Origin: Obelidium mucronatum
Taxonomy: Eukaryota > Chytridiomycota > Chytridiomycetes > Chytridiales > Chytriomycetaceae
Assembly: GCA_025765595.1 (NCBI GenBank)
Contig: JAIVFH010000090.1
Location: 62,001-126,000 of the forward strand
Length of the DNA stretch: 64,000 bases
Reading direction: 5' to 3'
This document shows positions 4,126 to 64,000 of the stretch, piece after piece. Position 1 is the first letter of the stretch. Each line of letters opens with the position of its first letter. A model generated the notes under the pieces. The model was not told the DNA's origin. It saw only the letters and a program-made list of their open reading frames with translations, and ran no database searches. The translations under genes and the position numbers were made by a program.

Positions 4126-5708
4126 ATGCAAGCCATGCACTCGATGGTCAATCTGTTGGTTGTTGTCCTGGGCATCCTCCACACTGCTTTCGCCCAGCAA
4201 GCTGGCCCCCTCCCAGCAACTGTCCAAACAGGTTTTCTCAACTTGACAGCTCTCCAATCTTCCCTCTTTTCCAAGTACGACGCACTTGCAAGACCCCTAG
4301 CAGGTACAAAGAACCAAACTGTGATTCAGTGCCAATTCCGCCTCAATAAGTTCATGGACCTTGATCCGCTTTCTGGGTCCTTCAAAATGGATCTCTATCT
4401 TCGGTTACAATGGGTTGATTCCAGACTGGCCTTTGACAACACTTCTGGAAGGAGAAGCATTCCGAATTGATCCTGCCCTTGTTTGGAAACCAGACATTTA
4501 CTTTTACAATGAGGCGGCCGAGATGAAAACCTTGGATTACAGCATGAAATTGAAAAAGGGAGGCACAGTTTTCTGGTCCAGGCACTATATTATGCAACTC
4601 AGTGCAGATCTCGATTTCCATGCGTTTCCTTTCGATGATCAGAAACTTGTACTGCAACTTGTCTCATATGGTTTCGAGTTGAGTGCCGTTTTATTGTCGG
4701 CTATCAAAATTTTTTTTAATCCAATTAAATATGTGTACATAAAAAAAACAGCAATTCAACAATTCTGCTGGAGATTATGCCGAACGGTGCCGTCTACCCT
4801 GACCCAATGTCAGACCCGGACTCACCTCTAAAGGCTGATCTGTGGACCGTAAACTCAATCGACAGTTTTGTCGAAAGCTTCAACGAAATCATGGGACAAA
4901 CAGACTATTCCCGCCTCTCTGTCACGATTTCGGTTTCTCGTGTCGCTACTTACTATGTCATTCGATACATTATCCCTCTTGCATTCATCTCTATTGCGGC
5001 AAGTGCTGGCTTCTGGATCGACAATATTGAAATCAAAATTGGTGCCGTGTTCACGCTTCTATTGGCCGTAGTGTCCTTCATGTTTTTGCTATCATCTGAT
5101 CTTCCCAAAGTCTCATGTAAGGAGACGTTTATTTTTTTCCTGCAAATGCATTTTTCTCACAACTTCCCCCGCACACAACAACCCCCCCAAAAAAATGCAT
5201 TACAGATAACACAAGAATGGACAACTTTGTACTCGCTTGCTTCTTCTTTACATTCCTGGGCCTCGCCGAATTCGCCGTAGTCCACGCCTTCTCAAACCCA
5301 ACCGCTACCCCTGTCGACGAAGAAATGGAACTCATCAAGGACCCTCAATTACCGCCTCATAATACTGACATTCGACCAGAATCATCCGCCAGCACAACAA
5401 CAACAGCAGCAGCAGCAGCGGCAACAACAAAAGAAGCCACCTCATCATCAATCGTCGAATCCAACTTGTCAAACAGCAAAACAAGATGGATTCCTGTCCT
5501 GTTGGACGTTTCATTGCGCGTGATTCAGCCGCTTGCTGTTTGTTTGGCAACTGTTGTCTGTTTTGCCGATTTGTCAACCGGCGCGCTCGTTGGTATTATT
5601 CTTGTGTTTGTGGCTGTGAGCGTGAGCGTGGTTGCAATTGTTTATCGAATGATTCTTGTCCCGGGAGGGGTCTTTTCGAAACTGGGGCCCAAAATTGGGC
5701 ATCGATGA
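4126..5708 (+). CDS. Pentameric ligand-gated ion channel (Cys-loop superfamily, Cys-less), with one frameshift
   Basis: Predicted plasma-membrane receptor channel. Exons 4126-4677, 4752-5116 and 5206-5708 give about 472 aa if one base is skipped near 4437-4450. A signal peptide (start chosen at 4126, followed by a hydrophobic stretch ending HTAFAQ) leads into an extracellular beta domain with RLQWVDSRLAF, LVWKPDIYFYN and FPFDDQKL. Four membrane segments follow: M1 after RVATYYVIRYIIP, M2 ending SSDLP, M3 after YNTRMDNFVLACFF, and M4 near the C-terminus. The M3-M4 loop is long and Thr/Ala-rich. The two cysteines that define animal Cys-loops are absent around FPFDDQK, as in bacterial homologues. 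The frame changes between DSRLAFDN and LLEGEAFRIDP with no room for an intron, so this is an assembly error, a strain-specific lesion or true frameshifting. Ligand and ion selectivity cannot be read from the sequence. Confidence 0.85.
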
Positions 5709-5955
5709 ATTATGTGGGGTTTGAGGAAATTAAAAAAGCGAACCTCTGTTTTCTCCAAACTGTATTTCATAACCATTTACTTTATTTTAATTTTTATTCA
5801 GATTCTTCTTACAGGTTATTTTTTCATTTAAAAAATGTGATTTTAAGTTCTCCCCCAATTTCAGACGGCAAACACCCATAAACAAACATCAGCATCAACA
5901 AAACAAAACCAATTGCTGACCAAAAGTTCAATTCCCCCCTCCCCAATCAAAAGAA

Positions 5956-7485
5956 ATGGCATCACTTATCGAACCGTACTTGACTTACCAAACGGCCACG
6001 TGGACGTTATTGGCTCTGCCCCTGTTGGCCACCGTCAAAGTCCTTGTGCACTACTTCATTGCTTCGCGGCTGAGTACATCCGCCTTGCGCAGAATGGTCT
6101 CGGGCAAAAACATTGTCGTTACAGGAGGAAGCAAGGGTCTTGGCAAGGTTTGGGTGATACTTTGTGATGTTCTTTTTTGTTTACTAATTTATTGGTTAAA
6201 ACCACCCCGCTCGCTCTTTGTCTTTCTTTGCTGTTGTTTTCTTCTTCTTCTTCTTCAAACAAAAAAAAAAGGGAATCGCGAAAGTTCTTGTTGAGAATGG
6301 AGCGAATGTGACCATCGTGGCTCGTGGGTTAGAATCACTCAAGGAAGCCCAGAAGGAGTTGCGCGCTATTGCCGGAGACCGCCAGGTGTTTGTCCAGGCA
6401 ATCGATCTCAGCAAGGCTGAGAAGGTTGTTGCTGGGGTCAAGGAGATCCGGAAAGTGATGGGTCGTGTTGATTGGGTGGTGAGTAGCGTACAATACCCAC
6501 AAGCTCAATGGAATTTATTTGTTCTCCACCGCTTCTTTCCCCCCCTCCCAAAAAAAAAAAAAATTATGTATTTAGATCCACAATGCTGGAAGTGCTGTCC
6601 CTGGATTCCTTGCAGACCAATTGAACCAAGAAGTTGAATCAATGACATCCCAGAACCTTCTTGCAACCGGAAATGTCGTCAAGGCGTTCCTATCGGTTGC
6701 CAAAGAAATCGCCGAAGACAAGAAGGTTGTTCCTGGATCGCGTACGTGGCCCATTTCGGGTCTCTCGGCGGCCGCGCAGGAAGAACTCCCGGCTAAATTC
6801 ATTTTTGTTGGAAGTCTTTGTTCGGCAATGTCTTTTATTGGGTTCAGTGCGTATTCTGCAAGGTGTGTGGTTTTTGTTGTTGGGTGAAAAAAAAAACTGA
6901 GAAAATTTTCTCAAACAACTAACAGTAAATACGGTCAACGTGGATTTGCTGATGCTCTTCGTTCGGAGTTTGCTCCTTTGGGTGTGGATGTTCATCTTTA
7001 CCTTCCGGTACAGCATTTTTTTTGTGTCTCCTCCTTCTGAACACTTTAAACGACTGACTGGCTTTATACAAAAAAGGCCAACATGGACACCCCAGGTTTC
7101 CAAATCGAAGGATCCACCAAGCCAGAAATTACTGCCCAAATTGAAGGCACCACTTCTACTGCTACACCTGAAGAAGCTGCCAAGGCTTTGCTCGCTGGTG
7201 TTCTCAACAACAGATATCAGATTTCTAATGATATCTTGGGAGAATTGATTCGTATTGGAGCTCAAGGAGGGGTTCCTAGACCTAATCCTATTACTGAGGT
7301 ATAAGAATTTTTTTTTGTGGGTGTGTGTGTGTTGTGTGTTTAACTGAATGGGGTTGCACGTCAAGGCTCTGGCAGCCCCGGTTGTCTCATTGGCTTTCAC
7401 CATCTGGGTTATGATTACGGAGTACGAAGTCAAGTCGTTTTTCAAGGCGGCGCGTCCAGCTACTCAGGCCAAGAAGTCAAACTAA
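5956..7485 (+). CDS. TSC10: 3-ketodihydrosphingosine reductase-like SDR (copy 1)
   Basis: NADPH-dependent short-chain reductase expected to reduce 3-ketodihydrosphingosine to dihydrosphingosine at the ER, the second step of sphingolipid synthesis. Exons 5956-6147, 6272-6478, 6576-6862, 6926-7007, 7077-7298 and 7366-7485 give 369 aa. An N-terminal membrane anchor lies at about residues 17-37, the nucleotide-binding motif TGGSKGLGKG at 56-65, then HNAG and the catalytic YSASK. The downstream block YLPANMDTPGF followed by KPEIT is typical of the KDSR subfamily. A hydrophobic C-terminal helix precedes a basic tail. A diverged paralogue lies at 12290-13554. Subfamily is inferred from these motifs; another membrane-bound SDR role is possible. 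Confidence 0.82.
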
Positions 7486-7661
7486 AAAGTTAAAAAGAGG
7501 AATTTTCCATGCATAAAAAGCGGTGTTTTGTATTTAGAACTCCAAATATATGTATTCAGTGTTTTTTTTGGGATGAGTGTGTGGATTTTTTGCTTCCTCC
7601 AATCATTTCACAAGGAAAAGAAACCCCACACAGAAAAAAAAGAATACGCGTTACAACAACC

Positions 7662-8581
7662 ATGACGACGGCACCTGGATTGAGTAACTTGACTTCAGCC
7701 ATCACAAACGTGAACAATGCAACCATCATTCCCACTGTTCCAGCCTCTGTCACACGTTTGTTTCATCTTCTTTTGGACATCTGAGAAACAAAAAAGAGAA
7801 TAACGTTACAAAACACACAATCAAAAACAACAGAAACAATTCATTACGTGACAGCAAACGATGGAGTCCTCGGAGGATTATGTATCGTTGCAGGATTTGT
7901 TATGCTTCTGTTTGGGTTTCGATTGTACAAGCCTACAATCTTTTTGGCTGGGACAATTCTGGGAAGCATCACGGTTTACTCGATTCTCGCGCACTTTAGG
8001 CCCGATTCTGGATACCAACCAAATGATGAAAATGTCATGACTTGGGTGCCAATTTGCCTTGGCGCTTTATGTGAGTCGGTTTTGTGACGGCTACTTGCCC
8101 CCATTCAATCTTTAACCAAAAAAAAAAATTAATGGGACAACAAGGTGGAACCATTCTCTTGATTCTACATAGTTTAAGTTTAGTTGTAGTTGGAGGCCTC
8201 GGAGGGCTGTTTTTCAGTTTCTTTATTCTTGGATGGAAACCGTTCGGCCTGATTGAACAAGGAGCCGGTCGAACCGTCTTTATCCTCGCTTTCATAATCA
8301 TTGGAATACTAGCAATATTTTACATTGAGAAAGTAATGGTGATTGTCTCAACGTCCATGTCTGGAGCATATGGAATCACGTTTGGGATCGATTGTTTTGC
8401 AAAGACGGGATTCACCCAGGATATGGGGATTGTTTTGAGTGAAGGGGCGGATGTCGCTTTGGACAAGTTTCAAAGTGATCCAAAGATTGTGGCGCTGGGT
8501 GTTTCGTGTATTTTTCTTGCGGTTGTTGGGATTGTTGTGCAGTTCAAGTCGAATGCGAATAAGGCGAAACATTCGCACTGA
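7662..8581 (+). CDS. Multi-span membrane protein, TMEM198/TM7SF3-like
   Basis: Exons 7662-7755, 7855-8070 and 8145-8581 give 248 aa. The N-terminus is polar with possible N-glycosylation sites (NLT, NAT). At least six hydrophobic helices follow, with Gly-rich helices such as LVVVGGLGGLFFSFFILG and a short basic, His-ending tail. The pattern of small glycine-rich helices separated by tight turns, with LYKPTIFLAGTILG, resembles the DUF4203/TMEM198-like family, whose fungal members are poorly characterised. I infer the family from this pattern only. The first exon boundary (donor after ACAC at 7755) is consistent in phase but supported only by splice consensus. Confidence 0.6.
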
Positions 8582-8724
8582 CTGTAGCTTTTTTTTTGTG
8601 TGTTCTTGTTGGTCTTCAAGTTTAATTCATGCATGGCCATATAAAAGTCTATTGTATAACCTTTTAAACAGTTATATTATTATTTTTTACTTTCTTTCTT
8701 TTTTTTTTTTTTTAAGATTCAAAA

Positions 8725-62214: not shown

Positions 62215-63121
62215 TTAGCGACGGTCAGCATGTTCCATGGAGCAGCCTTGAGCAACACACCAGGCTCCTGGCTCTCTCTTGGCTACTTCAACAACTGGTT
62301 CAGCAACGGCAACTGGAACTTCTTCAACTACCGGCTCGGCATCGCGACGGTCGGCATGTTCCATGGAGCAGCCTTGAGCAACGCACCACGCTCCTGGCTC
62401 TCTCTTGGCTACCTCAACAGCTGGAACTTCTTCAACAACTGGGACCTCAGCAACGGCAACTGGAACTTCTTCAACTACCGGCTCGGCATCGCGACGGTCG
62501 GCATGTTCCATGGAGCAGCCTTGAGCAACGCACCACGCTCCTGGCTCTCTCTTGGCTACCTCAACAGCTGGAACTTCTTCAACAACTGGGACCTCAGCAA
62601 CGGCAACTGAAACTTCTTCAACTACCGGCTCGGCATCCCGACGGTCAGCATGTTCCATGGAGCACCCTTGAGCAACACACCACGCTCCTGGCTCTCTCTT
62701 GGCTACTTCAACAACTGGTTCAGCAACGGCAACTGGAACTTCTTCAACTACCGGCTCGGCATCGCGACGGTCAGCGTGTTCCATGGAGCACCCTTGAGCA
62801 ACACACCACGCTCCTGGCTCTCTCTTGGCTACTTCAACAGTTGGAACTTCTTCAACAACTGGGACCTCAGCAACGGCAACTGAAACTTCTTCAACTACCG
62901 GCTCGGCATCCCGACGGTCAGCATGTTCCATGGAGCACCCTTGAGCAACACACCACGCTCCTGGTGCGCGTTTCACAATATCCCCCGTGATTTTGTCTGT
63001 GAACGTTGTCAACAAAACAGAGAACATGCAATAAGAAAAAGGAATCCTCACCAATAGGAGCGGGTGCGGCAAACGCCAACTGGGCAAGAGTAATCTGAAG
63101 AAGGAGGACAGTGAATTGCAT
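62215..63121 (-). CDS. Kex2-type repeat peptide precursor, alpha-pheromone-like
   Basis: Exons 63121-63052 and 62996-62215 give 283 aa. A signal peptide (MQFTVLLLQITLAQLAFA) and short pro-segment (APAPIDKITGDIVKR) lead into six peptide copies. Copies 2-6 read KR-EPGAWCVAQGCSMEHADRR and copy 1 reads KR-AP in place of KR-EP. Copies 1-5 are each followed by an acidic Val/Pro/Glu spacer of 28 or 21 residues; copy 6 ends directly at the stop. KR and RR are Kex2-type dibasic sites. EP (or AP) and GA before Trp fit Ste13-type dipeptidyl aminopeptidase removal, so a mature WCVAQGCSMEHAD with one disulfide is predicted (inference). The layout and the W-C...G-x-C core match ascomycete alpha-pheromones. 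A secreted antimicrobial or other Kex2-processed repeat peptide is the main alternative. Confidence 0.88.
62218..62965 (-). repeat. Six-copy intragenic tandem repeat of the peptide unit
   Basis: The peptide-coding segment recurs at 62911, 62764, 62638, 62491, 62344 and 62218 (left edges). The spacing is 147, 126, 147, 147 and 126 bp, all multiples of three. Copies are nearly identical at DNA level, differing by a few bases, and the spacers come in two length classes. Confidence 0.95.
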
Positions 63122-63186
63122 TTGTGGATTTATAAGGCTTGTTTGGAGCTTTGATTTTGATGGTATTTGATGTGACAGCGAACCTG

Positions 63187-63196
63187 CCTATTTATG
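63187..63196 (-). promoter_or_regulatory. TATA-like element of the repeat-peptide gene
   Basis: CATAAATAGG on the minus strand, about 66-75 bp upstream of the start codon at 63121. Motif and distance only. Confidence 0.35.
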
Positions 63197-63412
63197 CGTG
63201 TTTTGCTTGCTGCAAGCGGTCAGTATTTCATTGGATCAAGCTTTCAATGGGTCAATGGCTCCTTGTTGCCCGATATTTGGCGACTGAATTGTGATTGGCG
63301 GTTAACATTTGGTCACTGTTTGTATTTTCAAACGGATCAATGGGACAATGGGACATAGTCTCAGACCCAAATTTATCCCTCGGCAGACTAGTAGTGCCTC
63401 CAAATTTGAATA

Positions 63413-64000
63413 ATGTTCCTCTTCGACTATTGGACTCGCCCGGAGCTACCAGAGCTTTGGCAGTCCTGGGTCAACAGGGTCTATGTCTTTCAAGCGCTGG
63501 CCCTGATTCTCTTTTGTATGTTCCGACGCAGCGACGGCGGAGCACTCGGGAGTGGCAGCCGTTGGGTACCTTGCCGAGATCCACCACATTCTCACTGGAT
63601 CTTCCGTCAGTTCCGGTGGATGCTTGTGTCGCACATTGTCTATTATGTGTGTGAAATGGCTCTCACATCAATGTGGTCCAAGTACACAATCATGGGTATG
63701 GATCGATGGAATCATTCATAACACAAACTAAAAACCTGAATTGCGAACACAGGTACGCACCACGTTTTTGGAATCGTTATCATTGTGTGCTTTCTCCTTG
63801 ACCAAAACGTTATCTGCGTTTTTGCCGGTCTGCCCTTCTTCCTGCACACACTTTTGTGGGCCCTGAATATCAGTTCCCCTGTCCTACTCCTTCTGTACAA
63901 CTTGAGTCTGCTGTTTGGAGCCAGTTTTCTGTACTGTACATCCCTCGCACTCGACTTTGATGCACGTCCTGTCAAGTATGGCATACCCATGTGTCTCATG
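63413..64000 (+). CDS. Multi-span membrane protein, partial (runs off the window)
   Basis: Exons 63413-63695 and 63753-beyond 64000; 177 codons visible. Several hydrophobic helices: FQALALILFCMF, MLVSHIVYYVCEMALTSMW, VFGIVIIVCFLLDQNVICVF, SSPVLLLLYNLSLLFGASFL. A His pair occurs at the loop SKYTIMGTHHVFG. Conserved aromatic and His residues at a helix start recall TLC-domain (TRAM/LAG1/CLN8-like) proteins, but the fragment is too short to be sure. The start ATG follows an in-frame non-coding stretch and is followed by FLFDYWTRPELPELW. It is divergent from the repeat-peptide gene, 291 bp between starts. Confidence 0.65.

Follow-up and report, generated by a model that had tools for sequence, protein, structure and literature searches.

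A putative secreted repeat-peptide precursor of alpha-factor-like plan in the chytrid Obelidium mucronatum

The window, the 64,000-nucleotide stretch of DNA analysed here, comes from Obelidium mucronatum, a member of the Chytridiomycota (Chytridiales, Chytriomycetaceae); a preliminary description of this DNA had rightly placed it in a zoosporic fungus. The window contains a two-exon gene, g1, which runs from 63121 to 62215 on the minus strand and has a spliced product of 283 residues. Exon 1 (63052–63121) begins with the ATG at 63121 and encodes MQFTVLLLQITLAQLAFAAPAPI, whose hydrophobic start, MQFTVLLLQITLAQLAFA-AP, is signal-peptide-like when judged by eye. It is followed by a GT-AG intron of 55 bases (62997–63051) and by exon 2 (62996–62215), which includes the stop codon at 62217–62215. 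A start within the open frame from 63087 was considered and is unlikely, the intron-containing model being taken instead.

In the protein, MQFTVLLLQITLAQLAFAAPAPI is followed by a short linker ending in KR and then by six copies of the unit [A/E]PGAWCVAQGCSMEHADRR, which are separated by acidic, valine-rich spacers with KR at their ends. These spacers are 30 or 23 residues long, and one spacer in the related gene g2, described below, has 24. Copy 1 (APGAWCVAQGCSMEHADRR), immediately preceded by KR, occupies 62911–62967 and copy 2 (EPGAWCVAQGCSMEHADRR) occupies 62764–62820, while copies 3, 4 and 5 are found at 62638–62694, 62491–62547 and 62344–62400. Copy 6 (62218–62274) directly precedes the stop codon. 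The six copies reported in the preliminary description are therefore present, all on the minus strand. Repeat analysis of the DNA also returns the six copies of g1, spaced 126 and 147 bases apart. The public gene model, BDR26DRAFT_922618, is partial and has two complete peptide copies compared to six in the DNA.

Three precursor genes exist in the Obelidium mucronatum genome, with six (g1), three (g2) and four (g3) copies of the peptide, or 13 in total. A codon-degenerate WCVAQGC pattern occurs at 13 places genome-wide, compared to none for a control pattern, and a protein search of the genome found no place beyond g1, g2 and g3 at E 1. The g2 gene (plus strand, 128430–128919 of C90, the contig that holds the window) lies past the window end, approximately 3.3 kb from g1 and on the opposite strand, and encodes 144 residues. 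The g3 gene, on contig C149, encodes 199 residues. The exon 1 protein of g3 is identical to that of g1 and that of g2 differs at one residue, and the 55-base intron has the same position and length in all three genes. The dibasic flanks described earlier for g1 recur throughout, with KR before and RR ending every one of the 13 copies. The unit begins with Ala in each gene's first copy and with Glu in the other ten, so that the AP for EP already noticed in the first copy of g1 is shared by the first copies of g2 and g3. Both residues yield an X-Pro dipeptide.

The g1 and g3 genes belong to a recurrent block of approximately 4 kb (positions 4817–8715 of locus L011 on C149 and C90:124042–128141), in which the precursor gene is accompanied by a divergent membrane-protein gene and an XPA-type gene (XPA_C). 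The blocks on C149 and C90 are 94.5% alike over 3,718 aligned bases, with an additional 87% piece of 684 bases at the left end. Outside the block, a comparison of 28 kb of C149 with 78.8 kb of C90 lists no match of at least 150 bases except repeat and g2 cross-matches. One 99-base match (79%) lies left of the block, nothing matched in two more C149 samples of 5 and 4 kb, and, matches under 320 bases aside, the sequence flanking each block on the left occurs once in the assembly. Of the matching sequence upstream of g3, some 205 bases have a counterpart upstream of g2 as well. A mating locus was considered for the block, which recurs in different surroundings and is taken here as a dispersed duplication; it is also possible that the two blocks are haplotypes with unlike flanks. 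Elsewhere in the assembly, seven locus pairs in six regions were compared, and six of these pairs are 96.5–98.9% alike; the seventh is 88.6% alike over 1,952 and 96.0% over 1,238 aligned bases. The paired regions (C5/C399, C10/C115, C353/C109, C13/C430, C77/C116 and C15/C230) are mostly 96–99% alike, and look as if they were two haplotypes of a diploid, partly assembled.

Residues 2–19 are identical in all 13 copies of the three genes, an identity that is partly by construction, as the copies were gathered by exact match to the unit. It is unlikely that an altered copy was overlooked, because the printed spacers contain none and the protein search found no further place. Ten codons vary within residues 2–19, and since all 11 variants are synonymous and none changes an amino acid, the peptide is, as judged from its codons, under purifying selection. 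The probability of this outcome, which is far beyond chance, is 7e-8 to 4e-7 given that 22–26% of single-base changes are synonymous, a value that treats the variants as independent and that gene conversion could soften. In the 30-residue spacers (seven of the ten, the three shorter ones being left out), there are 9 amino-acid and 8 synonymous variants, which differs from the copies with a Fisher p of 0.004. This contrast indicates that the peptide, beyond the repeat as such, is the part that is kept. Gene conversion among the copies could also contribute to their likeness.

Among public proteins, the one reported match to the precursor is BDR26DRAFT_922618, a hypothetical protein, partial in sequence, from Obelidium mucronatum itself, and a search by shared five-residue words and similar length returned no orthologue in other species. 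For the full precursor, this search scored the 7,995 candidates with the most words in common, of which many were likely drawn by the low-complexity spacers; restricted to precursor residues 21–60, it gave a single candidate. A word-based search of this kind could miss a relative whose core had changed or whose length differed, and the g2 protein is absent from its results. Matches of the precursor to Pfam families below the cut-off (Phage_Mu_Gp37, LED_rpt, GBD_Hemicentin, FRP, Antimicrobial25, PcF and CFEM) were dismissed.

The plan of the precursor is that of the fungal Kex2-processed repeat proteins (KEPs), which likewise have internal repeats with Kex2 sites between them and which begin with a signal peptide, a feature that the start of the precursor resembles by eye (PMC6339444, PMC7329392). 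KEPs have at least three internal repeats, compared to six, three and four in the genes described here, and Kex2 sites accompany all 13 copies in a genome that also contains kexin. A 2020 survey counted 178 KEPs in Chytridiomycota, in 14 of 19 strains, and the word Obelidium is absent from its main text (PMC7329392). The class is therefore known already, including in chytrids, and it is this member that is new; no relative of its sequence was found in the word-based search.

In all 13 copies, the Kex2 site is followed by two XP/XA dipeptides, EP or AP and then GA. This plan of Kex2 site, XP/XA dipeptides and core has been described for alpha-pheromones (PMC6339444). Outside the Ascomycota, a 2019 survey reports STE13 signatures from Basidiomycota and from Rhizophagus irregularis, and names the latter as the sole early-diverging fungus that has them (PMC6339444). 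Like these non-ascomycete KEPs, the Obelidium mucronatum precursor has XA/XP after the Kex2 site, and it would add a chytrid to them. However, the Rhizophagus peptides are tyrosine-rich (PMC6339444), whereas the zoosporic Obelidium mucronatum has a W-C-x3-G-C peptide, and the Ste13-like leader before such a peptide appears to be new in a chytrid. A STE13 signature does not prove a pheromone, because Basidiomycota, which have sexual pheromones of a different type, also carry it in repeat proteins (PMC6339444). The pheromone chemistry of early-diverging fungi beyond Mucoromycotina and Blastocladiomycota is described as largely unknown (PMC6339444), and no gene for alpha- or a-factor is reported from arbuscular mycorrhizal fungi (PMC3834313). 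The preliminary description knew of no peptide pheromone of this type in chytrids, and no chytrid peptide pheromone is named in the open-access titles and abstract openings among the matches listed; tables may hold the sequence.

Processing by Kex2, Kex1 and Ste13 had been proposed for the precursor. Kexin loci are indeed present in the genome, where the kexin-type P domain (P_proprotein) exceeds the cut-off at five places, namely two on C5, two on C399 and one on C18. The kexin regions of C5 and C399 are 98–99% alike, like two copies of one region. The C18 gene also has a subtilase domain, and the kexin genes have tails that by eye resemble membrane anchors. The paired P-domain matches (C5:289196–290659 and C399:17485–18949) lie on opposite strands about 1 kb apart, with an inverted similarity of approximately 68%. 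For Kex1, the S10 carboxypeptidase family is present, its 37 matches being spread over 12 contigs, and none of these was singled out as Kex1 itself.

The proposed trimming by Ste13 found no such counterpart. DPPIV_N (PF00930) has no match in the genome at E 0.001; one candidate was scored and failed, and 5 of the 14 control genomes matched. This search might miss a gene divided among many exons. The catalytic S9 peptidase model matches 23 places. A domain scan of frames at nine of these loci (L020, L021, L022, L024, L025, L026, L028, L030 and L036), covering for some of them part of the gene, showed no DPPIV_N, and the S9 peptidases were rejected as Ste13 on this basis. Four of these loci (L020, L021, L022 and L024) carry the prolyl-oligopeptidase propeller PF02897. 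The other S9 places, which are contig partners, fragments and weak matches, lie outside the domain scan, and some were judged by eye. As no Ste13-type domain was found in these searches, EPGA may remain on the mature peptide. By BLAST, Ste13 is reported in nearly all of the catalogues surveyed, 15 of which are without at least one of KEX1, KEX2 and STE13 (PMC6339444).

The precursor had also been called alpha-factor-like, and this holds in part: the precursor plan, dibasic sites, kexin, S10 family and selection agree with it, but trimming by Ste13 is not supported and MF_alpha gives no match. Ascomycete alpha-pheromone precursors likewise have Kex2 sites, XP/XA dipeptides before the core and several copies, and many of their peptides share two Cys with that of Obelidium mucronatum. 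The precursor thus appears to be built like alpha-factor precursors, while its membership in the alpha-factor family lacks support. MF_alpha and MF_alpha_N give no match up to E 1 for g1 or E 10 for g3, and the ring is C-x4-C in Obelidium mucronatum compared to C-x6-C in the ascomycete motif RFCHLPGQGCSK. Because of this missing match and shorter ring, MF_alpha membership is not claimed. The best local alignment of WCVAQGCS with FCHLPGQGCS, from RFCHLPGQGCSK, was equalled in 242 of 20,000 shuffles, and that with the second of the two motifs tried was equalled in 7,464 of 20,000; a likeness of this order is too weak to indicate homology. In addition, a Ste2 profile search of the genome returned no candidate up to E 10, and none of the 14 control genomes matched either. 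STE2 is placed in Ascomycota only in two published accounts (PMC12842992, PMC9202105).

We propose that the precursors of the three genes would enter the secretory pathway, where kexin would cut them after KR and RR and a carboxypeptidase would then take off RR. Some peptidase may, in addition, take off EP/AP and GA. Each precursor would release several identical copies of WCVAQGCSMEHAD, or of the same peptide with EPGA retained, closed in either form by one disulfide. We consider it on balance probable, though by no wide measure, that this secreted, disulfide-closed peptide carries a signal from cell to cell within the species, whether to a mating partner, a thallus or a zoospore. Mating or zoospore attraction, as suggested in the preliminary description, may be its function; the mating role is a guess within the signal reading and a doubtful one. 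A peptide so defined, of 13 to 17 residues and calculable mass, can be tested directly; with the disulfide, the computed [M+H]+ is 1434.52 for WCVAQGCSMEHAD, 1562.58 with GA retained, 1788.68 for the EPGA form and 1730.67 for the APGA form. If it were active in mating or zoospore behaviour, Kex2-made peptide pheromones would go back much further in fungi, or would have multiple origins.

A peptide that is conserved exactly and has no relatives could also be toxin-like or antimicrobial. The processed peptide could then be a weapon against competitors, hosts or grazers, which we regard as unlikely, even though it is short and secreted-looking, has two cysteines and no relatives found elsewhere, and is encoded by three genes, and fungal repeat precursors include mycotoxins (PMC6339444). 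The peptide is acidic, with a computed pI of 4.4–4.6, and its 13 copies are alike, both of which argue against such a use. Most antimicrobial peptides are not acidic, and weapon peptides tend to diversify between copies.

It is distinctly less likely that the repeats stay uncleaved, or act as wall or surface peptides. Cleavage is here a prediction, and the structure of the cell wall is regulated by some of the Kex2-processed repeat peptides of fungi (PMC6339444). However, dibasic sites are kept around all 13 copies, and conservation is stricter in the peptide than in the spacers, which argues against this reading. Less likely again is a precursor of the ustiloxin kind of RiPP, in which the released core would be cross-linked by tailoring enzymes. 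Such precursors share the plan of repeated cores between Kex2 sites (PMC7329392), but UstYa (DUF3328) has no match in the genome, nor in any control genome, and the neighbouring frames scanned on C90 contain XPA, Iso_dh, BRO1, ALIX and F-box domains or belong to no family. Weakest of all, and very improbable, is true homology with ascomycete alpha-pheromones read by Ste2, for which the similar plan, the W-C...G...C peptide and one of the two motif alignments speak, and against which stand the missing MF_alpha match, the shorter ring, the second motif (no better than shuffles), the absence of a Ste2 candidate in a search that no control matched either, and the reported confinement of STE2 to Ascomycota.

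Within the preferred reading of a signal peptide, the precursor could encode a peptide pheromone, the first from a zoosporic fungus. This cystine-ring peptide would have arisen apart from alpha-factor, be made alike and be read by a receptor other than Ste2; we consider such a pheromone possible but rather unlikely. The divergent neighbour of g1 would then be a candidate receptor or pathway partner. Its start codon is separated from that of g1 by 291 bases (63122–63412), which are likely to be a shared promoter region, and the gene (63413–64000, plus strand) extends past the window end. The 286-residue product has 6 hydrophobic segments when one threshold is applied, and an AlphaFold model, whose mean pLDDT of 44.5 is too poor for comparison, shows 7 long helices. 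STE3 was also considered as a receptor in this genome, and its single match, of 51 positions and 18.3 bits (cut-off 29.2, with no control matched), was taken as chance; by eye, that locus resembles part of a hexokinase-type gene and repeats.

The neighbour protein matches no Pfam family, and its one reported relative, in Rhizoclosmatium globosum, is 48% identical over 76%. Paralogues occur in the Obelidium mucronatum genome on C21 (E 6e-8, distant) and on C16 (E 0.06, weaker). A two-member profile gave no match, and a four-member profile gave eight rows up to E 10, seven of them GPR4 chains (best E 0.02) and one FlhB (E 3.6). H74, E81, H97, H98 and H126 are among the positions conserved in the four-sequence alignment, and these look more like those of a membrane enzyme than of a receptor. 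The protein may be a TLC-like membrane enzyme, and the kept H, E, HH and H suggest a membrane-protein family that is as yet undescribed. At both places where this neighbour occurs, it adjoins a precursor gene.
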